Position numbers and translations under genes: made by a program
The notes under the pieces: model-generated
Database searches by the model: none
What the model saw: the letters and a program-made list of their open reading frames with translations, nothing else
What the model was told of the DNA's origin: nothing
Shown: positions 5,175 to 60,017 of the stretch, one piece after another
How the letters are laid out: every line of letters starts with the position of its first letter
Position numbering within the stretch: position 1 is the first letter of the stretch
Assembly (NCBI RefSeq): GCF_000227745.2
Contig: NC_018012.1
Coordinates: 4,692,501 to 4,756,500 of the forward strand
Origin: Thiocystis violascens DSM 198
GTDB lineage: Bacteria > Pseudomonadota > Gammaproteobacteria > Chromatiales > Chromatiaceae
DNA length: 64,000 nucleotides
Reading direction: 5' to 3'

Positions 5175-6614
5175 TTGTCGCCAACCTTCTACTGGCACGA
5201 TTACGAAACCTGGGGCGCCGACCCCCGTCGTGATCGTGCCTGTCAGTTCGCCGGTCTACGCACCGATACCGATCTGAACGAGGTCGGCGATCCGCTGGTG
5301 CTGTTCTGTCGCCCCGCGACGGATCTGCTGCCCCAGCCGGAGGCCTGTCTCATCACCGGCATCACGCCGCAACTTGCCGAGCGCGAGGGTCTGGTCGAGG
5401 CCGAATTCGCCGCACGCATCCATGCCGCGCTGAGCGAACCCGGCACCTGCGGGGTCGGCTACAACAGTCTCCGCTTCGACGACGAAGTCACCCGCCATCT
5501 GCTATACCGCAATCTCTACGACCCCTACGCGCGCGAATGGCGCAATGGCAATTCGCGCTGGGATCTCATCGATACCCTGCGACTGGCCCATGCCTTGCGC
5601 CCCGACGGTCTGGAGTGGCCGACCCACGAGGATGGCACCGTCTCGTTCAAGCTGGAGCAACTGACCGCCGCCAACGCCATCGGTCATGCTCAGGCGCACG
5701 ACGCGCTCGCTGACGTGCGCGCCACGCTCGCGCTCGCGCGCCGGCTGCGTCAGGCCCAGCCCCGGTTGTTCGACTATACGCTGACCCTGCGCGACAAGCG
5801 GCGTGGGCGCGATCTGCTCGCCAAGGGCGAGCCGCTGCTGCATGTCTCCGCCCGCTATCCCGCCGCCCTGGGGTGTCTCGCGCCGGTGTTCCCGGTGGCG
5901 CAACACCCGACGAACGGCAATGGCGTGATCTGCTTCGATCTGCGCGCCGATCCGGCCCAACTCCTCGACCTGTCCGTCGAGGAACTCCGCGCCCGACTCT
6001 TCACTCCGAGCGCGCATTTGCCCGAGGGCGTGGAGCGCGTCCCGCTGAAGACCGTTCATGTCAATCGCGCCCCGGTGCTGGCCACGCTGAAAACCCTGAC
6101 CGCCCAGACCGCCGAGCGCTGGCGGATCGATCCCGATCAGGTCGTTGAACGGGCGCGATGGATCGCGGCATCCGCCGCCGACATCCAGCGCCGCGTCCAG
6201 GCCGCGCATCAACTGCCGGAGGGTCCGGCCGAGACCGACCCTGATCTGATGCTCTACTCCGGCGGCTTTTTCTCCGACCAGGACCGGCGGATCCTGGATG
6301 GGATGCACCGTCTCTCGCCGGCTGAACTGGCGCAAGCGTCGCCGGTTTTCGAGGATGCGCGTCTGCCCCGCATGCTGTTTCGCTATCGCGCCCGCAATTG
6401 GCCCGAGAGTCTAACCCCGGAGGAACGAGAGGATTGGGACGCCGAGCGTCTGACCCGTCTCACCGACCCGGACGGCGGCGGGAGCATCCAGATTGACCCC
6501 TATGAACAGCGTCTGATGGAATTGGCCGAGATCCATGCCGCCGATCCGGGGAAACTCCAGATCCTGGAGGCGCTCTCGGGCTGGGCCGAACAGGTGCTTG
6601 ACGCCGCGATCTAG
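5175..6614 (+). CDS. sbcB: Exodeoxyribonuclease I
   Basis: A 479-residue DnaQ-like 3'-5' exonuclease that degrades single-stranded DNA, with roles in mismatch repair and recombination. The start is a TTG two bases after rplS. The exonuclease motifs are WHDYETWGADP (metal-binding D and E, residues 8-18), VGYNSLRFDDEVTRHLLYRNLYDPY, and AHDALADVRATLALARRL with the conserved H and D. The C-terminal part carries the SH3-like and helical domains of ExoI, ending with LEALSGWAEQVL. It is convergent with trmO; nothing resembling a strong terminator lies between them. Confidence 0.95.
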   Translation: MSPTFYWHDYETWGADPRRDRACQFAGLRTDTDLNEVGDPLVLFCRPATDLLPQPEACLITGITPQLAEREGLVEAEFAARIHAALSEPGTCGVGYNSLRFDDEVTRHLLYRNLYDPYAREWRNGNSRWDLIDTLRLAHALRPDGLEWPTHEDGTVSFKLEQLTAANAIGHAQAHDALADVRATLALARRLRQAQPRLFDYTLTLRDKRRGRDLLAKGEPLLHVSARYPAALGCLAPVFPVAQHPTNGNGVICFDLRADPAQLLDLSVEELRARLFTPSAHLPEGVERVPLKTVHVNRAPVLATLKTLTAQTAERWRIDPDQVVERARWIAASAADIQRRVQAAHQLPEGPAETDPDLMLYSGGFFSDQDRRILDGMHRLSPAELAQASPVFEDARLPRMLFRYRARNWPESLTPEEREDWDAERLTRLTDPDGGGSIQIDPYEQRLMELAEIHAADPGKLQILEALSGWAEQVLDAAI

Positions 6615-8883: not shown

Positions 8884-9055
8884 ACATTGAAGCCGTTCAT
8901 GGTTCGACAAGCTCACCACGAACGGCTTCAATGTCACCACGAACGGCTTCAATGTCACCACGAACGGTTTCAATGTCACCACGAACGGCTTCAATGTCAC
9001 CACGAACGGCTTCAATGTCACCACGAACGGCTTCAATGTCACCACGAACGGATGA
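8884..9055. repeat. Hairpin element followed by six 21-bp tandem repeats
   Basis: A near-perfect inverted repeat (arms 8884-8903 and 8915-8934, 19 of 20 bases pairing) encloses an 11-nt loop TCGACAAGCTC. The right arm then continues as contiguous 21-bp units from 8930 to 9055; each contains CACCACGAACGGCTTC plus AATGT, with one variant (GGTTTC) and a last unit that decays to GGATGA. The 386 bases between rlmD and the CYTH gene hold this array, the terminator and the inverted-repeat element at 9087, and no gene. Confidence 0.9.
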
Positions 9056-14020: not shown

Positions 14021-14137
14021 GACGGTTTCCCGAGAAGATCAACGCAAGCCAGTCGCCGCATCGTCTGTCGCGATCCAACGCGGCGGTAGCGTGCCCGCGC
14101 CCCTGGGAGCGCCGGCTTGCTCGCGGTGTCCCTGAAA

Positions 14138-14257
14138 CCGTTCGTGGTGTGCCAGAAGGCGTTCGTGGTGTGCCAGAAGCCGTTCGTGGTGTGCCAGAAG
14201 CCGTTCGTGGTGTGCCAGAAGCCGTTCGTGGTGAGGCCCTCGAACCACGAACGGCTT
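14138..14257. repeat. 21-bp tandem repeats ending in a hairpin (second copy of the 8.9-kb array type)
   Basis: Four contiguous 21-bp units (CCGTTCGTGGTG plus TGCCAGAAG, the second unit starting GCG) run from 14138 to 14221. They end in an inverted repeat with perfect 14-bp arms (14219-14232 and 14244-14257) around an 11-nt loop. The core GTTCGTGGTG is the complement of the CACCACGAAC core at 8.9 kb, and the loop complement TCGAGGGCCTC resembles TCGACAAGCTC there. The gap of 386 bp between thyA and the sulfatase gene holds nothing else that I can support. Confidence 0.9.
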
Positions 14258-18487: not shown

Positions 18488-19186
18488 ATGCATCTCCTGA
18501 TCGTCGAGGACGAACCCGAACTGCGCCGTCAGATCGTCGCGCGTCTGACGCGCGACGGCTGCATCGCCGAGGGTACCGGCGACGGTCAGGAGGGGCTCTA
18601 TCTGGCCAGCGAATACAGCTTCGACGCGGCGGTCATCGACCTGGGGCTTCCCGGACTCTCCGGCCTGGAGATCATCCGTCAACTGCGCGTGCGCGAAAGC
18701 CTGCTGCCCATCCTCATCCTGACCGCCCGCGACCGCTGGCAGGATAAGGTGGAAGGTCTGGAGGCCGGCGCGGACGATTATCTGGTCAAACCCTTCCAGT
18801 CCGAAGAACTCCTCGCCCGTCTGCGCGCGCTGGTCCGGCGCGCCGCTGGGACCGCCTCGCGCGCGCTGCGCCGGGGTCCGTTGCGCCTGGATCTGACGAC
18901 CGAGAAGGCATGGATCCACGACCGTCCGCTGGATCTGACCGCCTACGAATACCGTCTGCTCGAACAGCTCGCGGCCAGCCAGGGCAAGGTGCTCTCCAAA
19001 CAGGCGCTGGCCGACCGGCTCTATCCGCATGACGAGGACCGCGAGAGCAATGTCATCGAGGTGTTGGTCGGGCGGCTGCGACGCAAACTCGATCCGGACG
19101 GCTCGCTTGCCCCCATCGAAACCCTGCGCGGACGCGGGTATCGCCTGACCCTGACCGATGCACCCACCAAGGGCGGCGCGGGATGA
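18488..19186 (+). CDS. OmpR/PhoP-family response regulator
   Basis: A 232-residue regulator. The receiver domain has the acidic pair VEDEPEL, phospho-acceptor Asp51 in AVIDLGLPGLSG, Thr in LILTARD and Lys in DYLVKPFQ. The winged-helix DNA-binding domain runs from about residue 130 (LDLTTEKAWIHDRPLDLTAYEYRLLEQLA) to RLRRKLDPDGSLAPIETLRGRGYRL. Its stop overlaps the histidine kinase start, the usual sign of a cotranslated pair. The target genes cannot be read from the window; the upstream PepSY-like gene is likely in the same transcript. Confidence 0.93.
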   Translation: MHLLIVEDEPELRRQIVARLTRDGCIAEGTGDGQEGLYLASEYSFDAAVIDLGLPGLSGLEIIRQLRVRESLLPILILTARDRWQDKVEGLEAGADDYLVKPFQSEELLARLRALVRRAAGTASRALRRGPLRLDLTTEKAWIHDRPLDLTAYEYRLLEQLAASQGKVLSKQALADRLYPHDEDRESNVIEVLVGRLRRKLDPDGSLAPIETLRGRGYRLTLTDAPTKGGAG

Positions 19187-20520
19187 TGTCGCTGCGCACG
19201 CGCGTGGTGCTGTCCGCCGCCGCCGTGCTGACCGTCTTCATCCTCCTGACTAGCCTCGCCTTGGAGCGCGCGGTGCGCGAGACCGCCGAATCCGCGCGCG
19301 AGGAGCGCTTGCAGGCGCAGATCTTTCTGCTGATGGCGGCGGGCGAGGAGGAATCGTCGGGGTTGGTGTTTCCCAATGCGCTCGCCGAATCCCGGCTCAC
19401 CCTGCCGGGCTCCGGGCTGTACGCACTGGTCCTAAACGCGCTGGGCGATCCGATCTGGCAATCCCCGTCCGCCGTGGGCGTGGACATCCCGCTGCCCCAG
19501 CCGCTCGCCCCCGGACAGCGGCGCTTCGAGCGCCGGCAGGGAAGCGACGGACAAGAAGACTATCTAGTGCTCGGGTTCGGCGTGTCCTGGGCCACCGGCC
19601 CGGTCCCGCAGGACTACAGCTTCGTCGTCGCCGAGGATGCGTCCGCGTTCGAGTCCGAGGTGAGCCAGTTTCGCGCCAGTCTCGCCGGTTGGCTGGGCGC
19701 CATGGCGCTGCTGATGCTGGTGGCGCTGGTGCTGATTTTACGTTGGGGACTGACGCCTCTACGTCGGGTCGCGGCGGAGGTGGCAGCCATCGAGTCCGGT
19801 GATCGGACGCAGATCCAGGGCCGCTATCCCGCCGAGATCCGCGCCCTGACCGGCAATCTGAACGCCCTGCTCGCCCATGAGCGGGCGCGTCAACGGCGTC
19901 TCGACAATACGCTCGGCGACCTTGCCCACAGTCTCAAGACACCGCTCGCGGTCATGCGCGGCGCGCTCGACGAAGAGGACTCTCCAACCGCTGACCTGTT
20001 GCGGGAACAACTGGCGCGCATGGGGACGATCGTCGAGTACCAGTTACAACGGGCGCGTGCCAGCGGCCAGCCGTTGGCGACACTGGCCCCTCCGATCCCC
20101 GTGCGGCGGGTCGCGGAACGCCTGTCGGCGTCCCTGGCCAAAGTTCACCGCGACAAATCGGTGGCGGTCACGCTAGACATTGATCCGACGGCCGATTTTC
20201 GTGGCGTCGAGGGAGATCTATTCGAGATGCTCGGCAATCTGCTGGAAAACGCCTTCAAGTGGTGCGGACAGCGGATCCGCGTCTCCGGCGCATCCAGTCG
20301 GGGCGTCCTGACCATCACGGTCGAGGACGACGGCCCCGGCATCCCGCCCGACCAGGCGATCCGACTTCTCGAACGTGGGGCGCGCGCGGACGAGGCAACG
20401 CCTGGACATGGCATCGGACTCGCCGTGGTGCGCGAGCTGTGCGAGGCGTATGGCGGCGACATTCGGGTCGAACGCGGTGCGCTGGGCGGGGCGCGAATTC
20501 GACTGCGCTTACCGCATTAA
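19183..20520 (+). CDS. PhoQ-like sensor histidine kinase
   Basis: A 445-residue inner-membrane kinase with one N-terminal helix (VVLSAAAVLTVFILLTSL), a periplasmic domain of about 140 residues, a second helix (LGAMALLMLVALVLILRWGL, near 170-190), a HAMP-like linker, then the H box GDLAHSLKTPLAVM (His about 248). The ATPase domain shows the N box ENAFKWC, G1 VEDDGPGIPP and G2 GHGIGLAVVRELCEAYGG. It overlaps the regulator gene by four bases. The ligand is unknown; Mg or envelope stress sensing would be typical of the PhoQ group. Confidence 0.93.
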   Translation: MMSLRTRVVLSAAAVLTVFILLTSLALERAVRETAESAREERLQAQIFLLMAAGEEESSGLVFPNALAESRLTLPGSGLYALVLNALGDPIWQSPSAVGVDIPLPQPLAPGQRRFERRQGSDGQEDYLVLGFGVSWATGPVPQDYSFVVAEDASAFESEVSQFRASLAGWLGAMALLMLVALVLILRWGLTPLRRVAAEVAAIESGDRTQIQGRYPAEIRALTGNLNALLAHERARQRRLDNTLGDLAHSLKTPLAVMRGALDEEDSPTADLLREQLARMGTIVEYQLQRARASGQPLATLAPPIPVRRVAERLSASLAKVHRDKSVAVTLDIDPTADFRGVEGDLFEMLGNLLENAFKWCGQRIRVSGASSRGVLTITVEDDGPGIPPDQAIRLLERGARADEATPGHGIGLAVVRELCEAYGGDIRVERGALGGARIRLRLPH

Positions 20521-20674
20521 TCCGCGTCCCGAGAGGGTTGGCGCATGCGTCCGCCGCCGACCATGCTGCATCGGAAGAACTGCCCTACGGTCGTGTGCGA
20601 AAACCGATTCGTTGGATGGTCGCGGCTTTTGGTATAACTTGCAGGCCGCCGCCATGATTGTCTCGGAACGCCGC

Positions 20675-22726
20675 ATGACCGATCGCATCCCCGCTCTCGC
20701 CGCCTCGCCCAACCCCGCCGAGGCGTTGCGCGCGCAACTCGCCGCCCTGATCCCGGACGCCTTCTCCGAGGGACGACTCGATCCGGCCGCGCTCAAGCGT
20801 GCCCTGGGCGAGGAGGCGTTCGTCGCGGGCGAGGAGCGCTATGCGCTGACCTGGGCGGGGAAGAGCGGAGCCTACAAGGTGCTGCAAACGCCCTCGACCG
20901 CCACGCTACGTCCAGAGCGCGACCAGTCGGTGAATTTCGACACGGCGCAACACGTCTTCATCGAGGGCGAAAATCTTGAGGTGCTGAAGGTCTTGCAGAA
21001 GGCGTATTTCGGCAAGGTCAAGTTGATCTACATCGATCCGCCCTACAACACCGGCTCCGACAGCTTCATCTATCCCGACCGCTTTCAGGAGAGCAAGGAG
21101 GACTATCTCAAGCGCATCAATGACCTGGATGACGATGGGAGCCTGATGCGGGAAGGCTTCTTCCGCAGGAACAGCAAGGAGAACGGCCACTATCACAGCA
21201 ATTGGCTGTCGATGATGCTGCCGCGTCTCTATATCGCGCGGAATTTGTTGCGGGAGGATGGGGCGATCCTGGTATCTATCGACGACCACGAGGCGGCCAA
21301 TCTGAAGCTGTTGATGGACGAGGTATTCGGTCCGGAAAATCTGGTTGCTCAATTGGTCTGGGAGAAAGGGAGAAAAAACGACGCCAAGCTGTTCTCCGTA
21401 GGCCACGAATACATGCTTCTTTACACGCGTAGCATGGTTAAGCTCAAGGAAAATAAGACGGTTTGGCGTGAGCCAAAGCCGGGAGCCAAGGCGATTGTTG
21501 CCAGATGGCGCGAGTTGAAACGCGACTGTGGCGAGACCGACTACGCGGCGCAACAGACAGCATTGCGCGATTGGTACAGATCGCTACCGGACGCGCATCC
21601 ATCCAAAAAACTCAGCCGTCATAAATGGGTCGATCAATGGGGGCCGTGGCGGGACCGGGATATTTCCTGGCCGGGTGGTGGCGGTCCGCGCTATGACGTG
21701 CCGCATCCGGTGACGAAGAAGCCGTGCAAAGTACCAGAGCGGGGCTGGATTTATTCGTCGCCCGAAGAAATGCAGCGTCAGATCAAGCTGGGGCTAGTGC
21801 AGTTTCGCGCCGACCACACTGAGCCGCCGTTCCGCAAGGCACATCTTCTGCCAGTACCCGATGAACTGCCCGATGATGAGGAAACGGAATTCGACGATGA
21901 GGACATTTCGGATGACGAGATTGGACTTCAGGTTATCGGTAGCGTGCTTTACAAGCAGTCCCAGGTTTCGGTGAAGTACCTGCGCGAACTGATCGGCGGC
22001 AAGCTCTTCAATAACCCGAAGGACCATGAAGTGCTTGCCCGCTTGATTCGCTATTGCATGGGCGACGACGACAGCGGTTTGGTGATGGATTTCTTTGCCG
22101 GTTCCGCCAGTACCGTAGAGGCCGTGCTGACCCTCAATGCGAAGGAAGGCGGAAATCGGCGCGTGCTCGCCGTCCAGCTTCCAGAGCCATGCGATGAGAA
22201 AAGCGCGGCGTTCAAGGCTGGCTATTCAACCATTGCGGCCTTGAGCCGGGAGCGTATTCGCCGCGTCATCGAACGGCTCAACGCCGAGGCGGATCTGTTG
22301 AATCCAATCGCCAGCGATCTTGGCTTCAAATCCTTCCGGCTCACCCCATCCAACTTCAAGCAATGGCGCGGCGACGACATCGACACGCCCGAGCAGTTGG
22401 CCGAGCAGATCGAGCTGTTCACTAAGTCTGAAAAAGACGACGCACAGGTCGAGAACATGCTTTACGAACTGCTGCTGAAATTCGGGCAGGAGCTGACCAC
22501 GCGTATCGAGACGCTGAAGATCGAGGACGGCGGGGTGTTCGCCATCCACCAGCGCCAGATGCTCTTCATCCTGGACGGCTTCAGCGCCGCCATGAACCAG
22601 CCGCTGATGGATCTCAAGCCGCGCGAGATCATCGCCATCGACAGCGTCTTCCAGGATTCGGACACGCTCAAGACCAATCTGGACCTGCAATGCCGCGACG
22701 CGGGCATCAAGTTCACCTGTTTGTGA
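20675..22726 (+). CDS. mod: Type III restriction-modification system, Mod DNA methyltransferase
   Basis: A 683-residue beta-class N6-adenine methyltransferase. Start 20675 (MTDRIPALAA) is preferred; ATG 20654 is the alternative. Motif IV is YIDPPYNTGSDSF (about residue 120) and precedes motif I, VMDFFAGSAST (about 470), the beta order of Mod proteins. Between them lies the target recognition region (about 225-440), which is less GC-rich and has an odd acidic run DDEETEFDDEDISDDE. The C-terminal domain resembles Mod dimerisation/Res-contact regions. Mod methylates one strand of an asymmetric site and supplies specificity to the Res subunit encoded at 25207. The two are separated by four other genes, unlike the usual adjacent pair. 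Confidence 0.93.
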   Translation: MTDRIPALAASPNPAEALRAQLAALIPDAFSEGRLDPAALKRALGEEAFVAGEERYALTWAGKSGAYKVLQTPSTATLRPERDQSVNFDTAQHVFIEGENLEVLKVLQKAYFGKVKLIYIDPPYNTGSDSFIYPDRFQESKEDYLKRINDLDDDGSLMREGFFRRNSKENGHYHSNWLSMMLPRLYIARNLLREDGAILVSIDDHEAANLKLLMDEVFGPENLVAQLVWEKGRKNDAKLFSVGHEYMLLYTRSMVKLKENKTVWREPKPGAKAIVARWRELKRDCGETDYAAQQTALRDWYRSLPDAHPSKKLSRHKWVDQWGPWRDRDISWPGGGGPRYDVPHPVTKKPCKVPERGWIYSSPEEMQRQIKLGLVQFRADHTEPPFRKAHLLPVPDELPDDEETEFDDEDISDDEIGLQVIGSVLYKQSQVSVKYLRELIGGKLFNNPKDHEVLARLIRYCMGDDDSGLVMDFFAGSASTVEAVLTLNAKEGGNRRVLAVQLPEPCDEKSAAFKAGYSTIAALSRERIRRVIERLNAEADLLNPIASDLGFKSFRLTPSNFKQWRGDDIDTPEQLAEQIELFTKSEKDDAQVENMLYELLLKFGQELTTRIETLKIEDGGVFAIHQRQMLFILDGFSAAMNQPLMDLKPREIIAIDSVFQDSDTLKTNLDLQCRDAGIKFTCL

Positions 22727-22735
22727 GGCGACGAG

Positions 22736-23818
22736 ATGTCTGGCGTTCGATCGCTGACCATCACGGGTTATAAATCCATTCGCGAGCTGCGCGACTTTCC
22801 CCTGCGCGACTTGAATGTGCTCATCGGGGCCAATGGCGCGGGCAAGAGCAATTTCATCGGTCTGTTTCGCTTGCTCAATGAGATGTACGAGCAACGATTA
22901 CAGCTCTATATCCAGACCCAGGGCGGTCCGGATGCCATGTTGCATTTCGGGCGCGGCGTAACGGACCGACTTCATGCCGAGTTCTATTTCGCCAACAATG
23001 GATACAAATTCGACTTGCTTCCAACCAGCGATAACCGCTTGGTGTTCGAGCGTGAGGTGAGCTGGTTTGGCGGGGTCTATTACAAATCGACTTCCAGCAT
23101 CACACTCGGCACCGGACATGATGAATCCAAGCTGAAGACCGCTCCGGACGGATATTCGCCCTATGTGCGTCAGTCGGTGAGCAACTGGCGCGTCTATCAT
23201 TTTCACGACACCAGCGAACGGGCCAGGGTCAAGCAGAAGCTGCCAACCAACGACAATCTGCGCCTGAAACCCGACGCGGCAAATCTCGCCGCTTATCTGC
23301 GCCTGTTACGCGAAAGACATGTTGGAGAATACGAGCGCATCGTCGCCACCATTCGGTTGGTGGCGCCCTTCTTCGACGATTTCGTGCATCGCGAAGGCGA
23401 TCCCGAGACCGTCGAGCTTGAATGGACACAGCGGGGCAATCCGGATACGCCGTTCAAGGCGCACATGCTCTCGGATGGCACCTTGCGGTTCATCTGTCTC
23501 GCCACCCTGCTGTTGCAACCGGTGCGTCTGATACCAGACACGCTCTTGATCGACGAGCCCGAATTGGGCCTGCATCCCTACGCCATTACCGTGTTGGCCG
23601 ATATCTTCAAGCAGGTGGCGGAGCAGCGTCAGTTGATCGTCTCCACGCAGTCGGTGGAATTGGTCAACGAGCTGGTGCCCGAGGATGTGATCGTGGTCGA
23701 TCAGGAAGAGGGTACATCGATCTTCCGCCGCTTCACCGCCGAGGAACTCTCCGGCTGGCTGGAACAATATGCCTTGGGCGAGTTGTGGAAGCGCAACGTG
23801 CTGGGCGGGCGACCCTGA
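22736..23818 (+). CDS. ABC-type AAA ATPase (AAA_21/OLD-like) of a defence-type pair
   Basis: A 360-residue SMC/ABC-like ATPase without membrane parts. Walker A is LIGANGAGKSNF (residues 28-39), signature region MLSDGTLRFICLATLLL, Walker B TLLIDEPELGLHPYA and the switch STQSVELVNEL. The middle region 70-200 is variable. It starts ten bases after mod and its stop overlaps the start of the DUF4276 gene (TGATG), so the two products are very likely partners. Comparable ATPase/TOPRIM-like pairs (RloA/RloB, OLD/Gabija-like) sit in R-M loci and act in phage defence; the function here is inference. Confidence 0.85.
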   Translation: MSGVRSLTITGYKSIRELRDFPLRDLNVLIGANGAGKSNFIGLFRLLNEMYEQRLQLYIQTQGGPDAMLHFGRGVTDRLHAEFYFANNGYKFDLLPTSDNRLVFEREVSWFGGVYYKSTSSITLGTGHDESKLKTAPDGYSPYVRQSVSNWRVYHFHDTSERARVKQKLPTNDNLRLKPDAANLAAYLRLLRERHVGEYERIVATIRLVAPFFDDFVHREGDPETVELEWTQRGNPDTPFKAHMLSDGTLRFICLATLLLQPVRLIPDTLLIDEPELGLHPYAITVLADIFKQVAEQRQLIVSTQSVELVNELVPEDVIVVDQEEGTSIFRRFTAEELSGWLEQYALGELWKRNVLGGRP

Positions 23819-24492
23819 TGGTCGAGGTGATCGTCTTCGCCGAGGGGCCGACCGAGGAGCAGTTCATCAAGCGACTCGTCGCGCCAGCCTTGCGTCACCT
23901 GGAGGTCTTCGTCAAACCCCGGATGCTCAAGACTTCCGCCGAGGCGCGCGGCGGTGCGGTTAGTTTCGAGCGGTTGATGTTCAATGCGCGCAATACACTG
24001 CGCCAGAACCCCGACGTGATCCTGACCACTCTGCTCGATCTCTATGGTCTGGAGACATCCTTTCCAGCCTTCGCGGAAGCGAGGATGAAGCAAGACGTGT
24101 TCGACCGTCTCGCCTGTCTGGAATCCGCGATGGCGGACGCCATCGTGGCCCATGTCGGCTGCCGCCCTGAGCGATTCATTCCTTACATTCAGCCCCATGA
24201 GTTCGAGGGTCTGTTGTTCTCGGATGTCCAGGCCCTGGTGCGAACCGAGCCATCATGGATCGCTCATGAATCGTGCCTCGCTGCGATCCGAACGGCATTC
24301 GAGTCGCCCGAGCACATCAACGACAGTTATGAGACCAAACCCTCCCGACGGCTCGAAGCCTTGCTGCGACCTGGCTACAAAAAAACACGCCACGGTCCAT
24401 TGGCGGCCGAGCGGATCGGCCTGCCACGCATGGAACAGGAATGCCCGCACTTTCGCGGGTGGATGGACAGATTACGTAGCTTGGGGGTCTGA
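23818..24492 (+). CDS. DUF4276-family protein, partner of the ABC ATPase
   Basis: A 224-residue protein. The start MVEVIVFAEGPTEEQFIKRLVAP carries the family's EGPTE motif, which resembles the glutamate of TOPRIM domains. Later come DVILTTLLDLYGL with an Asp, and FIPYIQPHEFEGLLFSD, also conserved in DUF4276. The C-terminal part (YETKPSRRLEALLRPGYKKTRHG) is typical of the family. DUF4276 proteins occur next to AAA ATPases and probably supply a nuclease or TOPRIM-like activity. The start overlaps the ATPase stop, implying fixed stoichiometry. Confidence 0.82.
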   Translation: MVEVIVFAEGPTEEQFIKRLVAPALRHLEVFVKPRMLKTSAEARGGAVSFERLMFNARNTLRQNPDVILTTLLDLYGLETSFPAFAEARMKQDVFDRLACLESAMADAIVAHVGCRPERFIPYIQPHEFEGLLFSDVQALVRTEPSWIAHESCLAAIRTAFESPEHINDSYETKPSRRLEALLRPGYKKTRHGPLAAERIGLPRMEQECPHFRGWMDRLRSLGV

Positions 24493-24540
24493 TAGCCCGT
24501 TAGACTCCAGTTCTAGGCGAACCAGGATGGCCGGCTCCCG

Positions 24541-24861
24541 CTATTCCTCGAACAAATCCGAATGCGTGCCGGCGCGCACGAAATTGATCCGGTTGCCCGC
24601 GACCTGATAAATCAGCAGGAAGTCTCCACCGACATGACATTCACGATGATCGGCCCATTCGCCCTTGAGGGGGTGATCTAGCCACTCGGGACCAATCGGG
24701 GCCTCGTTGGCGATGAGCAGGAGCATCACCTCCTTCAGCCGCCGCAGGTCGAAGCGTCCGGAGCGCGACAGCCGTTCCCAGTCTTTCGCGAAAGGCTTGG
24801 CATAGTCGGATGCCCTGGGTAGGGCCGCGCGTTTAACGCTGGCCGGTCTTTTCAAAGTCAT
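24541..24861 (-). CDS. yafQ: YafQ-family toxin (mRNA interferase)
   Basis: A 106-residue RelE-superfamily toxin. Family features are the FAKDWERLSRSGRFDLRRLKEVMLLL helix pair, LDHPLKGEWADHRECHVGGDFLLIYQV, and the C-terminal VRAGTHSDLF, in which the H residues are the catalytic His set of YafQ. It would cleave mRNA on the ribosome. The N-terminus overlaps the antitoxin gene by about 29 bases, so a later start (after RAALPRASDYAKPF) is possible. The pair is inserted opposite to the R-M genes. Confidence 0.88.
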   Translation of the reverse strand: MTLKRPASVKRAALPRASDYAKPFAKDWERLSRSGRFDLRRLKEVMLLLIANEAPIGPEWLDHPLKGEWADHRECHVGGDFLLIYQVAGNRINFVRAGTHSDLFEE

Positions 24862-25111
24862 CGAAGAGGGCTTCAGCGGTCTCGAAGCGGGCGCGGTCCG
24901 CCTTCATCATGGCGCGCGACTCGTCGATCGCGGCACGGGTCAGGGCATTGGGCACCTTGAGTTCCAGTGGAAAGGCTTGGTCATGGGCCACGCGCTTGAG
25001 CAGAATTCGCACGGCATCCGAAACGGATAGCCCCATGGCCGCCAGGGCCGCGCTGGCCTCGGCCTTCACGTCATCGTCGATACGAACATGCAGCATCGAG
25101 GTATGGGCCAT
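24833..25111 (-). CDS. dinJ: RelB/DinJ-family antitoxin
   Basis: A 92-residue ribbon-helix-helix antitoxin: SMLHVRIDDDVKAEASAALAAMGLSVSDAVRILLKRVA is the DNA-binding half and also the dimer interface, and the rest (FPLELKVPNALTRAAIDES) neutralises the YafQ-type toxin encoded directly downstream. As in other relBE-type loci, the antitoxin comes first and likely autorepresses. Within an R-M island it would favour retention of the island. Confidence 0.9.
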   Translation of the reverse strand: MAHTSMLHVRIDDDVKAEASAALAAMGLSVSDAVRILLKRVAHDQAFPLELKVPNALTRAAIDESRAMMKADRARFETAEALFDDFEKTGQR

Positions 25112-25206
25112 CGGGATGTCCTCCTCAGTGGGTTGTCAGGGGTCAGTGGCCGGTCTCGCCGCTGGCCGTGATGGAAACTATGTCTCTCTCATGCGATACA
25201 ATCAAG

Positions 25207-27993
25207 ATGAAACTCCAATTCGACGCCAACCAGGATTATCAACTCACTGCCATCCGCGCCGTGGTGGATCTGTTCAAGGGGCAGCCGGATGCCTCGCAGA
25301 CCGCCGTGACGCGGGATGACGCGCTCTCCAGTCTGAATCTGACCGAGACCGGCGTGGCGAACCGCCGTGTCATCGACGCGGCGCAGTGGCTGAAGAATCT
25401 GCGCGCCGTCCAGAACGCGCACGACATCGAGCCTTCGCCGACCCTGGAGCCGATGCGCTTGGACGACGGTACGCCAGTCGGCACGTTTCCTAACTTCACC
25501 GTCGAGATGGAGACCGGCACCGGCAAGACCTACGTCTATCTGCGTACGATCCACGAATTGGCGAAGACCTACGGGTTTCGGAAGTTCGTCATCGTGGTGC
25601 CCTCGGTGGCGATCCGCGAGGGGGTGCTGAAGAGCCTCAAGATCACCAGTGACCATTTCCAGATGCTGTACGACTATGCGCGAGCCGAGTTCATGGTCTA
25701 CGACTCGACCAAGGTCAACCAGCTCCGCCATTTCGCCCTGTCGGACGCGATCCAGATCCTGGTGATCAACATCGACGCCTTCGCCAAGGACTCGACCCCG
25801 GCGGAGCGTCCGCAACCGGCCGGCAAGTCGCGCAAGAAGCCGTCAAAGGGCAACGTCATCAACCAGGTGCGCGAGACTGGGATCGCGCCGATCCAATTCA
25901 TCCAGGACAGCCATCCGATCCTGATCCTGGACGAGCCGCAGAATCTGGAGACCGATCTGCGCAAGCAGGCCATTACGCGGCTCAATCCACTCTGCGCGTT
26001 GCGCTACTCGGCCACCCATCGCAACACTTACAACCTGATCCATTCGCTCGATCCGGTGCGTGCCTACGAACTGGGGCTGGTCAAGCAGATCGGCGTGGAT
26101 TCGGTGATCGCGCTCAAGGATGCCAATCAGGCGTTGGTCGAGATCGCGGGCTTCAACACCGGCAAGCGCAGCGTCTCGGCCAAGCTGACGATCTGGGTCA
26201 ATCAGGCTCAGGGACCGACGAAGAAGACCGTGACGGTCAGAAACGGCGACGATCTTTACAGCGTGAAGTTCTCCAACCAGCGCGAAATCTATCGAGACGG
26301 TTTTATCGTCAACGAGATCGACGTCGGCGAGGGTGTCATCACCTTCGCCAACGACGTGCGGGTGCGTCTTGGGCAGCCGCATGGCGCCCTCACCGATACC
26401 ATTCTGCGTCTACAGATCGAGACGACCGTGCGTCGTCATTTCGAGAAGGCGCGACGGCTGCATCCGCTGGGCATCAAGGTGCTCTCGGTCTTCTTCATCG
26501 ACCGAGTGGCCAACTATCGCGCCCATGGCGAGGATGGCGCGACATCCAAGGGCAAGTTCGCAGTCTGGTTCGAGGACATCTACGCGCAGTTCCGCGCGGA
26601 CCCCGACTATCTCGGATTGATGCCGCACGCGCCGGAGCGGGTACATAATGGCTATTTTTCGCAGGACAAGCGCGCCGTCTCGCCCTTCGAGACCCTGACC
26701 GGCAAGAGCAACGCCGACGCGGAGGCCAGCGCCTTCGAGCTGATCATGCGCGACAAGGAGCGCCTGCTGGATCTGGATGAGCCGCTCGCCTTCATCTTCA
26801 GCCATTCCGCGCTGCGCGAGGGTTGGGACAATCCCAATGTCTTCCAGATCTGCACCCTGGCCGAGTCCAGTTCGGACCTCAAGAAGCGGCAGGAGATCGG
26901 GCGCGGGCTGCGGCTGTGCGTGAATCAGGAGGGCGAACGGGTCCGCGACCGAGGCGTGAATCGTTTGACGGTCATCGCCAACGAGAGCTATGAGGACTTC
27001 GCCAACCAGTTACAGGCGGAGATGACCGAGGCCGGCGTGCGATTCAAGCCCGAGATGGTCCAGAACGAGCGCGATAAAGTCGCCGTGCGGCTCAAGAAAG
27101 GCTACGACACCGACCGCCGTTTTCTGGATCTTTGGGAGCGGATCCGGGCGTGCACCCGGTACCAGGTCCAGTACAGCACTGCCGAGCTGACGGCCAAGGC
27201 CGCGCGACGGATCAGGGACAAGCTGCCCATGATCGAGCGGCCCCGAGTGGCGGTCATCCGTGCCGACATGGCCATCGGCGCCTCGGGGGTGAGCGGAACG
27301 GAAACCGGCCGTCGCACCCAGACCCTGGAGGCAAAATACGTCATGCCCGATCTGGTCGGCCAGATCCAGACCAAGACCGGGCTGGCGAAATCGACCGTGG
27401 CGCGCATCCTGCTCGACAGCGGGCGGCTCGGCGAGGCGCTCAATAACCCGCAAGCCTTCGTCGATCTGGCGGCGGAGATCGTCAACGTGGTCAAGCGCGA
27501 GTTCCTGGTCTATGGCGATGGCTCGGAGGGCAGCGGGGTGCGATACCTGAAGCTGGAGGGCGATGTCTACGCAATGCGACGCTTCGAGAACGACGACCTG
27601 ATGGGCGTGTTCGCGTCCAATGTCGTCGCGGTCGGAAAGCAGGAGAAGACGCTCTTCTCGCACATCGTCATCGACTCCAATTCGAGCCCCGAGCGGCTGT
27701 TCGCGCAAGCCTGCGAGGACAATGACGACGTGCTCTTCTACATCAAGCTGCCGCGCTGGTTTCAGATCGAAACGCCCGTCGGACCCTACAACCCGGATTG
27801 GGCGCTGGCCTACCGCAACGACCAGATCCTGTACTTCGTCGCCGAGACCAAGAAGACCGGCGGCGACCGTGTCCAGCTCGATCTGCTGCGACCCATCGAG
27901 GATCTGCATATCGAATGCGGCAAGCGACACTTCAGGAACTTCGAGGAAGTCCGCTTCCGGGTTGTCGCGTCGCTGGCCGAGTTGGTGGGTTGA
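25207..27993 (+). CDS. res: Type III restriction-modification system, Res helicase-nuclease subunit
   Basis: A 928-residue SF2 translocase plus nuclease. Start 25207 (MKLQFDANQDYQLTAIRAVVDLF) matches Res N-termini; an ATG at 25168 would add 13 odd residues. Motifs: Walker A EMETGTGKTYVYLR (about 103-108), DEAD-like ILDEPQNLE, SATH-like SATHRNTYN, EGWDNPNVFQICTL and QEIGRGLRLCVNQ (motif VI). The C-terminal PD-(D/E)XK nuclease is YNPDWALAYRNDQ with YFVAETKK. All parts look intact, so the island may be active with Mod. Two methyltransferase-dependent subunits separated by 2.5 kb suggests insertion of the ATPase/TA genes between mod and res. Confidence 0.94.
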   Translation: MKLQFDANQDYQLTAIRAVVDLFKGQPDASQTAVTRDDALSSLNLTETGVANRRVIDAAQWLKNLRAVQNAHDIEPSPTLEPMRLDDGTPVGTFPNFTVEMETGTGKTYVYLRTIHELAKTYGFRKFVIVVPSVAIREGVLKSLKITSDHFQMLYDYARAEFMVYDSTKVNQLRHFALSDAIQILVINIDAFAKDSTPAERPQPAGKSRKKPSKGNVINQVRETGIAPIQFIQDSHPILILDEPQNLETDLRKQAITRLNPLCALRYSATHRNTYNLIHSLDPVRAYELGLVKQIGVDSVIALKDANQALVEIAGFNTGKRSVSAKLTIWVNQAQGPTKKTVTVRNGDDLYSVKFSNQREIYRDGFIVNEIDVGEGVITFANDVRVRLGQPHGALTDTILRLQIETTVRRHFEKARRLHPLGIKVLSVFFIDRVANYRAHGEDGATSKGKFAVWFEDIYAQFRADPDYLGLMPHAPERVHNGYFSQDKRAVSPFETLTGKSNADAEASAFELIMRDKERLLDLDEPLAFIFSHSALREGWDNPNVFQICTLAESSSDLKKRQEIGRGLRLCVNQEGERVRDRGVNRLTVIANESYEDFANQLQAEMTEAGVRFKPEMVQNERDKVAVRLKKGYDTDRRFLDLWERIRACTRYQVQYSTAELTAKAARRIRDKLPMIERPRVAVIRADMAIGASGVSGTETGRRTQTLEAKYVMPDLVGQIQTKTGLAKSTVARILLDSGRLGEALNNPQAFVDLAAEIVNVVKREFLVYGDGSEGSGVRYLKLEGDVYAMRRFENDDLMGVFASNVVAVGKQEKTLFSHIVIDSNSSPERLFAQACEDNDDVLFYIKLPRWFQIETPVGPYNPDWALAYRNDQILYFVAETKKTGGDRVQLDLLRPIEDLHIECGKRHFRNFEEVRFRVVASLAELVG

Positions 27994-28085
27994 CGCCAGC
28001 CGCGCCATTGCCCGTGAAAACCGCGGAAGGTGTGACGGGGCTCGATGCGCCAGTCTCCCCGCGGGTCAACTCGACCCTCGCCGAG

Positions 28086-29093
28086 TCAATAGCCGTTCGG
28101 ATTCCCCGACTGCCAGCGCCAGGCGTCGGTCACCATGTCGTCGATCCCATGCTCGGCCTGCCATCCCAACTCATCCCGAGCGAGAGTCGGATCGGCGTAA
28201 CAGACGGCGATATCGCCCGCGCGGCGCGCGACGATGTCATAGGGAACCGGCCGACCGCTCATCCGCTCAAAGGCGGCGACCATTTCCAGCACGCTGTATC
28301 CCCGCCCGGTTCCCAGGTTGTGCACCATCACGCCGGGATTCGACTGGAGCTTGCGCAGGGCCGCGAGATGACCGCGTGCCAGGTCGACGACATGGATATA
28401 GTCGCGCACGCCGGTGCCATCGGCGGTCGGATAGTCGTTGCCGAAAACCCGCAGCCGGGGCAGCTTACCCACCGCGACCTGGGCGACATAGGGCATCAGA
28501 TTGTTCGGAATGCCGTTGGGATCCTCGCCGATACACCCGCTCGGATGGGCACCGACCGGATTGAAATAGCGTAGCAGTGAGACATTCCAGGCGCTGTCCG
28601 ACACCCACAGATCGCGCAGGATCTCTTCGATGAAGAGTTTCGAGCGGCCATAAGGATTGGTCGCGGAGAGCGGAAAATCCTCGCGGATCGGTACGCTGAC
28701 CGGATCGCCGTAGACGGTCGCGGAGGAGCTGAAGACGATATTTTTCACGCCCGCCGCGGCCATGGCTTGACAGAGCGCGAGAGTGCCGCCGAGATTGTTG
28801 TCGTAGTAGTGCAGCGGCATCTCGACCGATTCGCCGACCGCCTTGAGTCCGGCGAAGTGGATCACGGCGTCGAATCGACCCTCGCGCAGGATGGCGTCCA
28901 GGGTTGGACGATCCCGCAGATCGGCCTGCACGAATCCCAGATCCTTGCCGGCGATCCCGCGTACCCGATGCAGCGATTCCTCCTTGCTGTTGCTGAGGTT
29001 GTCGACAACGACGACCCGCATGCCCGCCGCCAGCAGTTCCACGCAGGTGTGGCTACCGATATACCCCGCCCCGCCCGTCACCAGAATCCGCAT
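28086..29093 (-). CDS. galE: UDP-glucose 4-epimerase
   Basis: A 335-residue extended SDR epimerase interconverting UDP-glucose and UDP-galactose. Start 29093 is set by an excellent AAGGAG ribosome site and the conserved [21 protein letters not shown] (NAD Rossmann motif GxxGxxG). Catalytic residues are the Ser in SSSATVYG and the YGRSK Tyr-Lys pair ([14 protein letters not shown]). The ending [20 protein letters not shown] is typical of GalE. A longer frame toward 29306 reads through the repeat element and is not real. Confidence 0.96.
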
Positions 29094-29127
29094 CGCGCCT
29101 CTCCTTATTCTTTGGAATGGAGTTGCC

Positions 29128-29211
29128 AAACCGCGCCCAGAGCGAGAAACGTCGTTTCGTGGCTCTTCAACTCGCTTTGCGTCACCATGGACGGTCGGCT
29201 GGGCGCGGTTT
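29128..29211. repeat. 84-bp inverted-repeat element (copy B)
   Basis: AAACCGCGCCCAG at 29128-29140 is the exact reverse complement of CTGGGCGCGGTTT at 29199-29211. GCTGGGCGCGGTTTAAAT (29198-29215) is identical to 9157-9174 of copy A. It lies upstream of galE between that gene and ygfX. The remaining bases to 29330 are AT-rich and hold no gene I can support. Confidence 0.65.
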
Positions 29212-29330
29212 AAATATTTGAAAATTAATAATTTAAGCCGCGTCGACTCGGATCCTACAGATGAGTGTAAACACGGCTGACGACTCAAAACGATGCATGC
29301 CGTCATGGACGCGGTGTTAGTGTAGCCGAA

Positions 29331-58746: not shown

Positions 58747-59259
58747 ATGGCTAACGCCAGTATAGCAACCAACGTCATTCCCTTTCCGCAACAACAGCCG
58801 GAGCCGATTCAGGAAGCCCCGAAACGTAAGCGGCGCTGTCGCTGCGGCTACTGCGGCGAACTCTACCCGACCAATCCCGAGACTCACCCAATATCGGGTT
58901 GCTGTCCGTCTTGCTGGGGGGTGTTGGAGCGTGTCCAAAGGGTTTATTGGACGGTTTCGGGGCGCTATGACTGCGATCAAATCGCCCGTGCCATTCTTGC
59001 CGATCCCGAAGGAAAGGAAGCCGACGACCTGCGTTTTATGGAGGCTTTTCATGATGCTTTCCGTGAGGCGACGCCTTACGGAAAAGCATTGATCTTGCAA
59101 ATGCTTCGGCGCGCTACCGACGAAAACCGACGCGCCGAGATCAAACTCGTTTCTCAGCGAAAGGAAGTAGAGCCGTGTTCGGGGAACGCGCCATGTTTGA
59201 GGATGGTTAAACCTGCTCCTGGTCGCGCGGCATCCATCCATGAGGCATCCGAGTTTTAA
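58747..59259 (+). CDS. Hypothetical protein with a CxxC zinc ribbon
   Basis: A 170-residue protein with GAGAGAGG 8-15 bases before the ATG. Residues 33-62 hold CRCGYCGELYP and CCPSCWGVL, two CxxC knuckles spaced like a zinc ribbon, preceded by a basic stretch KRKRRCR. The rest is helical without recognisable family features. It lies just beyond the IS3 right end and probably belongs to the integrative element associated with tRNA-Gly. Confidence 0.65.
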   Translation: MANASIATNVIPFPQQQPEPIQEAPKRKRRCRCGYCGELYPTNPETHPISGCCPSCWGVLERVQRVYWTVSGRYDCDQIARAILADPEGKEADDLRFMEAFHDAFREATPYGKALILQMLRRATDENRRAEIKLVSQRKEVEPCSGNAPCLRMVKPAPGRAASIHEASEF

Positions 59260-59357
59260 GCACTGAGTTAAGCCGGGTCTAGGCTGATCCCCGAAAAGGC
59301 AGACCCTTCACCGCCCTGGCCCGGCACCTTTTTGAAGGTTCGCGTGAAGGTCGCGTT

Positions 59358-59915
59358 ATGAATTTCCCGGATTGGGCACCGCCTAGCGTCATTGAACGCT
59401 GGCAGGAATGTATGCAAGAAAATGAAGAAGAGTTAGCCCGTAGTATTGCCTTTTATCGCGACTTGCAAGAAAAAGGCGAGCTATCAAAAGACTATGACGC
59501 GGAAACGATTGCACGGGAAGACCGAAAAGACGCTTTAGATTTTCCGGGAATGATTGGCCGTCTCTTGACGGATGAAAAAATGGAATGGGCATGGAAACGA
59601 CTCCCGAAACTGAAAGAGCGGAATCAGCGACATCACAGCGCGCTAATCGAGGCGATATTTATTCGCGTTGTGGAGCGTGGATTTTATGGCTCAGTCACCC
59701 GTATAGAACGAATGCCAACCGCTGAATTTTTAAAATGGATTGCGGATGTTCAGGCGACGGCGGCGAAGCTGGCGGGATTAGTCGAGGATACCGGGTTGGA
59801 TTATTATCTTTGGCGTGACTTCAAGAAAGCCCAGGTCCAGGCGGCTGTTAGGTGTAGCGGCCTGCAAACATCCGCGGCCCGACCTGCAAACATCGCAATT
59901 TTCGACCCGAATTAA
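59358..59915 (+). CDS. Hypothetical protein with a transposon-derived C-terminus
   Basis: A 185-residue, less GC-rich helical protein (IERWQECMQENEEELARSIAFYRDL, HHSALIEAIFIRVVERGFYGSVTRIERMPTAEFLKWIADVQ). From about residue 166 the frame runs into the left 165-bp inverted repeat of the transposon (RCSGLQTSAARPANIAIF), so the native C-terminus is lost; what follows is shared with the right end of the transposon. No family was recognised. Confidence 0.65.
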   Translation: MNFPDWAPPSVIERWQECMQENEEELARSIAFYRDLQEKGELSKDYDAETIAREDRKDALDFPGMIGRLLTDEKMEWAWKRLPKLKERNQRHHSALIEAIFIRVVERGFYGSVTRIERMPTAEFLKWIADVQATAAKLAGLVEDTGLDYYLWRDFKKAQVQAAVRCSGLQTSAARPANIAIFDPN

Positions 59916-60017
59916 CTGCAAATATCGGGGGTCCAGGACCCGGATTATTTGCAAATGAGCCGACATTAACTGCAAACAGCCTGCAAACATCCGCGCCGGC
60001 CCAGATTATCTGCAAAC
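59853..60017 (+). repeat. Left terminal inverted repeat with seven YTGCAAA sites
   Basis: Identical in inverse orientation to 63621-63785 apart from one base (GATTATCTGC versus GATTAACTGC). YTGCAAA begins at 59862, 59884, 59916, 59949, 59970, 59981 and 60010; these are probably transposase binding sites. Confidence 0.85.

Follow-up and report, generated by a model that had tools for sequence, protein, structure and literature searches.

Why does a type III restriction-modification (R-M) operon hold two further pairs of genes between its methylase gene and its restriction gene? The operon lies in a 64,000-nucleotide stretch (the window) of the genome of Thiocystis violascens DSM 198, which is a single 5.02 Mb contig. 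The first-pass annotation had described complete mod and res genes that are split by an ABC-type ATPase gene and a DUF4276 gene and then by a reversed DinJ/YafQ pair, and the gene coordinates, the Pfam matches and the matches to EcoP15I bear this description out. We consider it probable that a mod-HEC01A-HEC01B-res operon was acquired horizontally, that the ATPase/DUF4276 pair, HEC-01, is a separate backup system in the slot between mod and res, and that DinJ/YafQ is a later passenger. The features of the locus, in window positions, are as follows.

19183-20520: histidine-kinase-like flanking gene, named by eye
20535-28084, no strand: block inserted relative to the same-genus genome G004, where the flanking genes are adjacent
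20675-22726, plus strand: mod, 683 amino acids (PF01555, PADLOC, motif and EcoP15I matches)
22736-23818, plus strand: HEC-01A, ABC ATPase of the OLD/SMC type, 360 amino acids (Pfam, PADLOC and structure matches)
23818-24492, plus strand: HEC-01B, DUF4276 protein, predicted Toprim/OLD-like nuclease, 224 amino acids (Pfam, PADLOC, model)
24499-24528, plus strand: apparent decayed duplicate of the first 30 nucleotides of res (insertion scar), 23 of 30 identical
24541-24861, minus strand: yafQ, mRNA interferase toxin of the RelE/YafQ family, 106 amino acids (Pfam, alignment with solved toxins)
24833-25111, minus strand: dinJ, antitoxin of the RelB/DinJ family, 92 amino acids (Pfam)
25207-27993, plus strand: res, type III restriction subunit, 928 amino acids (SF2 helicase and C-terminal endonuclease domain)
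28086-29306 as listed, minus strand: galE-like flanking gene, named by eye

The limits of the block of six genes are exact, with the ATG of mod at 20675 and the stop codon of res ending at 27993. Pfam names domains in all six genes and PADLOC matches four of them (mod, res, the ATPase gene and the DUF4276 gene); judged by such models, all components belong to catalogued families. The ATPase gene starts 9 bp past the end of mod, and its TGA and the ATG of the DUF4276 gene have one base in common, at 23818. The open reading frame of res opens at a GTG at 25168, and its homology to the res gene of the closest relative, a locus in a Comamonadaceae MAG (L062), begins at the ATG at 25207, which is the likely start. 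Genes were found by simple open reading frame picking, by which small genes can be missed. A promoter scan gave zero sigma-70-like sites (shuffle mean, 1.9) and a terminator scan seven sites (shuffle mean, 5.7); the scan is thus uninformative on the transcription of res.

The R-M system looks intact because both EcoP15I subunits are matched and the motifs are kept. Mod matches the N6_N4_Mtase domain (PF01555) with an E-value of 4e-25, the PADLOC model MTase_III with 4e-170 and the EcoP15I Mod subunit of 4zcf with 3e-73, and it has the methylase motif DPPY at residue 121. Res matches Pfam ResIII and RE_endonuc, PADLOC REase_III (1e-265) and the EcoP15I Res subunit of 4zcf (2e-47), and has the helicase motif GTGKT at residue 104 and the C-terminal endonuclease motif PD...ETK at 863. 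The two genes thus appear to encode an EcoP15I-type type III enzyme, which differs from EcoP15I in the two foreign gene pairs between mod and res. Residues 287 to 428 of Mod were left unaligned by blastp with its closest relative in L062 and probably form the target recognition domain; the recognition sequences of the two enzymes therefore likely differ.

Relative to G004, the block is an insertion, because the same two flanking genes adjoin there. Flank homology to this genome runs up to window position 20534 and resumes at 28085, and the spacer is 72 bp in G004 versus 7,550 bp in the window. A full-length copy of the window ATPase is absent from all six other genomes that were searched in the genus; G004 has, elsewhere, a 51% identical piece of such an ATPase near a contig end. 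In another genome of the genus, G001, the two flanks are on different contigs and both break off at nearly the same bases, and the kinase-galE junction is a possible hotspot of insertion or rearrangement. At the G001 breaks (L241 and L242), kdp genes were seen on one side and CoiA-like and phage-replication-like genes on the other.

What is the gene pair that follows mod? HEC-01A matches its PADLOC model with an E-value of 6e-146 and Pfam AAA_21 with 7e-27, and HEC-01B matches PADLOC and DUF4276 (PF14103) with 1e-73 and 8e-55, respectively. Both proteins match their models nearly end to end and the genes are adjacent; on these matches the pair is HEC-01, a candidate defence system catalogued in PADLOC, which is reportedly credited to a 2024 preprint by Payne et al. 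Literature searches returned no paper on DUF4276 and none that combined HEC-01 with PADLOC, and a mod-HEC-01-res arrangement was not found by titles and abstracts, which is no proof of its absence from print. HEC is described as an Hma-embedded candidate, and several HECs, including HEC-06, are described in a 2026 paper as active in assays (PMC12988326). The window pair differs from this description in that its host is a type III mod-res operon instead of a helicase-methylase-ATPase (Hma) operon, and in that a toxin-antitoxin pair is inserted behind it.

The two genes of HEC-01 form a fixed, portable unit. A DUF4276 profile scan of genome contigs gave at least 496 confirmed relatives, of which the best 80 were used. 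An ATPase gene lies directly upstream of DUF4276 in 78 of these best 80 of at least 496; the remaining two loci (L132 and L135) both begin at a contig end. The distance from the ATPase stop to DUF4276, measured to the start of the tblastn match, ranges from -8 to +14 bp and is -4 bp in 36 of the 78 loci, again among the best 80 of at least 496. Moreover, the two genes diverge together, with a correlation of 0.78 between HEC-01A and HEC-01B distances over 4278 pairs. The pair is rare and patchy: DUF4276 was found in 7 of 369 genomes of the class, the window genome included, at an E-value of 1e-15, and in 12 of 72,556 plasmid records at 1e-10. A tblastn search of 50,697 phage records with HEC-01B gave no match, nor did a search of E. 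coli genomes with the DNA of the pair, and two of five loci on viral contigs (L142 and L143) have both genes. One of the plasmid loci is on a mobilizable plasmid of 11 kb (L049; plasmid pTR11_2 of Acinetobacter sp. TR11), where genes annotated as VapBC and tet(39) are close to HEC-01.

HEC-01A is an ATPase with an SMC/OLD head fold. It has Walker A (GANGAGKS, residue 31), signature (LSDG, 245) and Walker B (LLIDEPE, 270) motifs, its profile matches the OLD protein of T. scotoductus (6p74) with an E-value of 1.5e-11, and comparison by VIA gives Z 18.3 with OLD and up to 21.2 with the heads of SMC and Rad50. Among the defence ATPases, its profile matches OLD, PtuA, GajA and AriA, and the PADLOC model of AriA matches it weakly (2e-25).

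The fold of DUF4276 was approached with an AlphaFold2 model made from 68 window and genome-contig sequences, which has a pLDDT of 95. The top four rows of VIA-align for this model come from the C-terminal parts of class 2 OLD proteins, with Z 9.4 to 8.5; the tool gives Z 7 to 8 as a typical best where a model has no clear match in Foldseek. One of these rows is from B. pseudomallei and three are from one X. campestris protein, covering 171 to 182 residues with an rmsd of 4.3 to 4.7, and the next row is a glutaminase-asparaginase with Z 6.9. Foldseek found nothing below an E-value of 0.025 for the model in the PDB and nothing below 0.001 among viral models, where one RloB-like protein was listed with a probability of 0.96, a TM score of 0.44 and an E-value of 0.041; a sequence search of DUF4276 against solved structures gave four rows with E-values of 0.29 or worse, none of them credible.

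The class 2 OLD protein of B. pseudomallei has the catalytic residues E400, E404, D455, D457, T506, E508 and K562 (PMC6755086). Paired by sequence spacing and not by superposed coordinates, the counterparts in HEC-01B would be E9/E13, D74/Y76, E128/E130 and K189, with agreement in all within-pair spacings (4, 2 and 2). The VIA alignment opens with residue 1 at chain residue 392, which, if gapless, would place E9 on E400. The first-pass annotation had staked its claim in part on nuclease-like residues in DUF4276 proteins, and E9, D74, E128, E130 and K189 are indeed invariant in 68 of 68 sequences, with E13 kept in at least 90%. Against an OLD-type assignment count the Glu that HEC-01B has at the position of T506 of OLD, the Tyr at position 76 and the matching of residues by spacing.

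Because of the fold match and the residue spacing, the best reading of HEC-01 is a split OLD system, like PARIS, with HEC-01B read as an OLD-type Toprim nuclease in a gene of its own. The analysis contributes this structural guess for DUF4276, together with the scar of the insertion and the counts of slot contents described below. HEC-01 resembles OLD (class 1 and class 2/Gabija GajA) in its ABC ATPase, in the Toprim-like domain predicted here and in the class 2 residue spacing. It differs from OLD in consisting of two separate genes, in the window and in 78 relatives (among the best 80 of at least 496), and in the DxD motif, which is D74-x-Y76 in HEC-01B, the first Asp being invariant and the second position a Tyr in at least 90% of the 68 sequences. 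The earlier suggestion of a two-gene anti-phage system of the OLD or Gabija kind is therefore only partly retained: the pairing in 78 of the best 80 of at least 496 relatives, the catalogue entry for HEC-01 and the OLD-type fold and residues speak for it, whereas Gabija was rejected, as no GajB UvrD-like helicase is among the genes found in 20675-27993. PARIS (AriA/AriB, a proposed class 4 OLD) likewise has an ABC ATPase and a Toprim effector in separate genes of one operon. Membership in PARIS itself was rejected, with no match to AriB and with HEC-01B matching only HEC-01B models (PADLOC, E-value of 0.01).

Does the order mod-ATPase-DUF4276-res recur elsewhere? The search that the first-pass annotation had proposed found it in L062 and, outside the best 80, in a plasmid of Aeromonas veronii (pHX3; L051). 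The spacing is similarly tight at both loci, with 9 to 10 bp after mod (9 bp in L062), an overlap between the ATPase and DUF4276 genes and either a 4-base overlap with res (ATGA in L062) or 2 bp before it. Window and L062 proteins are 79% (ATPase), 73% (DUF4276) and 79% (Res) identical, and those of Mod 68% over residues 11 to 286 and 58% over 429 to 683; identities to L051 are 32 to 43%. Gene order and similarity thus identify the unit that moved here as four genes, mod-HEC01A-HEC01B-res.

HEC-01 is also found in other R-M operons. At least 12 of the best 80 of at least 496 relatives are inside R-M-type operons, with contexts assigned by phmmer from a small query set and loci cut by contig ends scored as misses, so that embedded counts are lower bounds. 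Within the best 80, mod-[HEC-01]-res occurs in L062, hsdS-[HEC-01]-hsdR in L074, L088, L096 and L100 (2.8 kb after hsdS in L100) and helicase-[HEC-01]-mod-res in L105, L114, L119 and L131 (with longer gaps in L131), and HEC-01 follows a mod-like methylase gene in L099, L109 and L137. Orders related to that of the window occur in L046, L047, L054 and L057, outside the 80. A tree made by a quick method from 93 pairs of 97 loci, including the window, requires 11 changes among five context labels versus 17.8 in shuffles, with at least two changes for the mod-[HEC-01]-res label and at least three for the type I label; it omits L056 and L075 (too short) and L132 and L135 (no ATPase), and L051 is a long branch. 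These repeated changes of context indicate that HEC-01 probably entered R-M operons more than once. The other 68 of the best 80 of at least 496 relatives were not recognised as R-M-embedded, so the link to restriction is not obligatory; among the neighbours scanned, L087 has metH and L092 a squalene-synthase-like gene, while in L052, outside the 80, FtsH is beside HEC-01. In three Burkholderiales loci (L078, L080 and L087), a 905-residue protein of one cluster is encoded directly downstream of HEC-01; in L087 it is the B12-dependent methionine synthase, not a usual neighbour for a defence candidate.

How special is HEC-01 as an occupant of the gap between mod and res? A res search was positive in 24 of 146 genomes of the family, and mod and res were recognised in order in 19 of 23 loci examined, the window included. 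The gap is at most 17 bp in 3 of these 19 loci and at least 773 bp in 16. Besides HEC-01 and DinJ/YafQ in the window, the 16 filled gaps hold Fic, a YhcG nuclease, RhuM (twice), an AAA_21 ATPase, DarT, a RecG-C-like open reading frame, an HTH_37 gene, a DUF4258 gene, a Phd/YefM match just under the Pfam cut-off and a Schlafen AlbA_2 gene in L161, with an open reading frame of equal length in L162. No cargo was recognised in the family gaps of L150, L157 and L158, and mod itself is in pieces in L158. In the class, a mod search was positive in 17 of 369 genomes; of 16 further loci taken, 12 could be assessed, with gaps of at most 154 bp in four and at least 942 bp in eight. These eight gaps contain RhuM (three times), GmrSD, an AAA_21 ATPase, a HAD gene with DinJ/YafQ, and one open reading frame each in L189 and L194, that in L194 without a Pfam match. 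Nine of 34 plasmid records were examined, and seven have gaps of at most 14 bp (one of these with an insertion sequence inside mod), one contains DUF262 and one RhuM (the L149 locus). The name RhuM was given for resemblance to a single plasmid gene with that annotation. Filled gaps are thus common in the family and class sets, and most gaps of the plasmid set are empty.

The recognised cargo consists, by family assignment, of known effector types, and HEC-01 appears as one cargo among many. HEC-01 occupies the gap at just one of the type III loci examined (23 from the family, counting the window, and 16 from the class), namely in the window, and the gaps of L151 and L196 contain a related ATPase without a DUF4276 match. 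The first-pass annotation had linked its proposal to a conserved pairing and to a gap content that does not vary freely: the pairing does not break among the best 80 of at least 496 relatives, but what fills the gap does vary freely from one type III locus to another. A broader reading, which we advance only tentatively, is that the mod-res junction is a general slot for backup effectors and that HEC-01 acts as a mobile split-OLD guard, set off when phage anti-restriction proteins block restriction. If it were true, HEC-01, Schlafen, GmrSD, YhcG, Fic, DarT, RhuM and toxin-antitoxins would be interchangeable second layers, and a general slot would be a place to seek new defence genes. The large gaps or inserts of L150, L157, L158 and L194, without Pfam matches in the open reading frames scanned, hold candidate new effectors.

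How might HEC-01 work as a separate backup system? Mod-Res would mark the host DNA and cut unmodified DNA. HEC-01A would sense infection or the loss of restriction and then license the putative Toprim-type nuclease DUF4276, making HEC-01 a second, independent layer and a backup effector like split OLD or PARIS. Its target may be phage DNA or tRNA, and the outcome would be abortive. PARIS has its ATPase and its Toprim protein in separate genes (PMC10568477); its ATPase responds to the anti-restriction protein Ocr and its Toprim subunit acts by cleaving tRNA, and BREX loci carry OLD-ABC/Toprim pairs as backup effectors (PMC12839542). The two-gene system tgvAB is nested in a type I R-M operon and protects without the R-M nuclease of its host operon (PMC11411939). 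The BREX effectors and tgvAB resemble HEC-01 here as second defence modules inside a DNA-modification operon, and differ from it in the host operon and the effector family. The nesting of HEC-01 by R-M genes suits a PARIS- or BREX-like backup role, although its trigger and target are inferred. The layered defence unit of the first-pass annotation largely holds for R-M plus HEC-01, as a layered function suggested by gene order and families. The locus offers a specific, testable example of an operon with two stacked defences, and its arrangement shows how bacteria may pile up backup defences within a single operon.

Alternatively, HEC-01 could be an accessory of the restriction enzyme that is triggered by the activity or failure of Mod-Res, so that the four genes would be one machine. 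The tight packing of the four genes in L062 and L051, the comparable identities of all four between the window and the Comamonadaceae MAG and the precedent of PARIS, which guards against an anti-restriction protein (PMC12839542), are consistent with this idea. However, 68 of the best 80 of at least 496 relatives were not recognised as R-M-embedded, no R-M gene is annotated in the displayed stretch of three plasmid loci (where the gene table is incomplete), and many mod-res pairs are without HEC-01, which together make a single machine unlikely.

Is DinJ/YafQ part of the backup arrangement or, as we favour, a late passenger? The reading frames of both genes are intact, YafQ aligns well with solved toxins (Pfam E-value, 1e-27; RelB in DinJ, 6e-20), and dinJ overlaps yafQ in the arrangement of a RelB/DinJ antitoxin with a YafQ toxin. 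Right after the DUF4276 stop, positions 24499-24528 copy the start of res (25207-25236), and their translation reads VRLQF*ANQD versus MKLQFDANQD in Res. The scar agrees with the first 30 nucleotides of res at 23 positions, and the second-best site, with both strands of the window considered, at 21; for a 25-nucleotide core the values are 21 versus 18, and none of about 20,000 random 60-nucleotide stretches of the window scored above 18 for this core. The scar lies, within a few bases, where res starts in L062. The plain reading of these sequences is that dinJ-yafQ entered an overlapping DUF4276/res junction, duplicating the start of res, of which the left copy decayed. Because of this decayed start we regard the insertion of dinJ-yafQ as late and the pair as outside the conserved unit, and the scar shows a route by which a toxin-antitoxin pair entered such an operon.

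L062 and L051, the two other loci that share the gene order, both lack the pair. DNA related to dinJ-yafQ is present in 26 of 210 Chromatiaceae genomes, the window genome included, and HEC-01 is beside none of the related copies at 11 other Chromatiaceae loci (L211 to L221, with flanks of 1.5 kb). On this evidence the toxin-antitoxin layer, which the first-pass annotation had counted as an addiction module of the unit, is not supported, and a single conserved unit that includes it was rejected on the same absence and the scarred junction. Two of five related copies with longer flanks are near type I R-M genes (L230 and L232), and an unrelated type III locus (L199 in G244, 5450-5998) has DinJ/YafQ between mod and res, in the same direction as mod; dinJ-yafQ may thus favour R-M surroundings even if it is outside the unit. 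Could the whole block, DinJ/YafQ included, still be one selected unit, with the toxin-antitoxin as an addiction lock or trigger layer? The gap of L199, the antitoxin-like genes in other mod-res slots, the two copies near type I R-M genes and the intact frames of a well-aligned toxin would fit, but the lack of DinJ/YafQ in L062 and L051, the late insertion to which the decayed res start points and the 0 of 11 related Chromatiaceae copies (1.5 kb flanks) by HEC-01 make this quite improbable. Just as doubtful is a DNA repair or housekeeping module that has no defence role and hitchhikes in operons, for which the SMC/Rad50-like head fold of HEC-01A and the several loci beside metabolic genes, such as metH in Burkholderiales, would speak, but against which stand the patchy distribution (7 of 369 class genomes), the recurrent embedding in unrelated R-M types with 11 context changes on the tree, the presence on plasmids and the profile matches to the OLD, PtuA, GajA and AriA defence ATPases.

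Two further observations concern the window away from the operon. At 59272-59338 there is a match to the Rfam int-alpA RNA (52.6 bits, E-value of 5e-8), which falls in 59001-60000, the 1-kb bin of the window with the lowest GC content (52%); this dip with int-alpA is possibly the edge of a prophage or an integrative element. Two arrays of 21-nucleotide tandem repeats lie 5 kb apart at 8913-9051 (6.6 copies) and 14121-14233 (5.4 copies), and their units, judged by eye, are related in opposite orientation.
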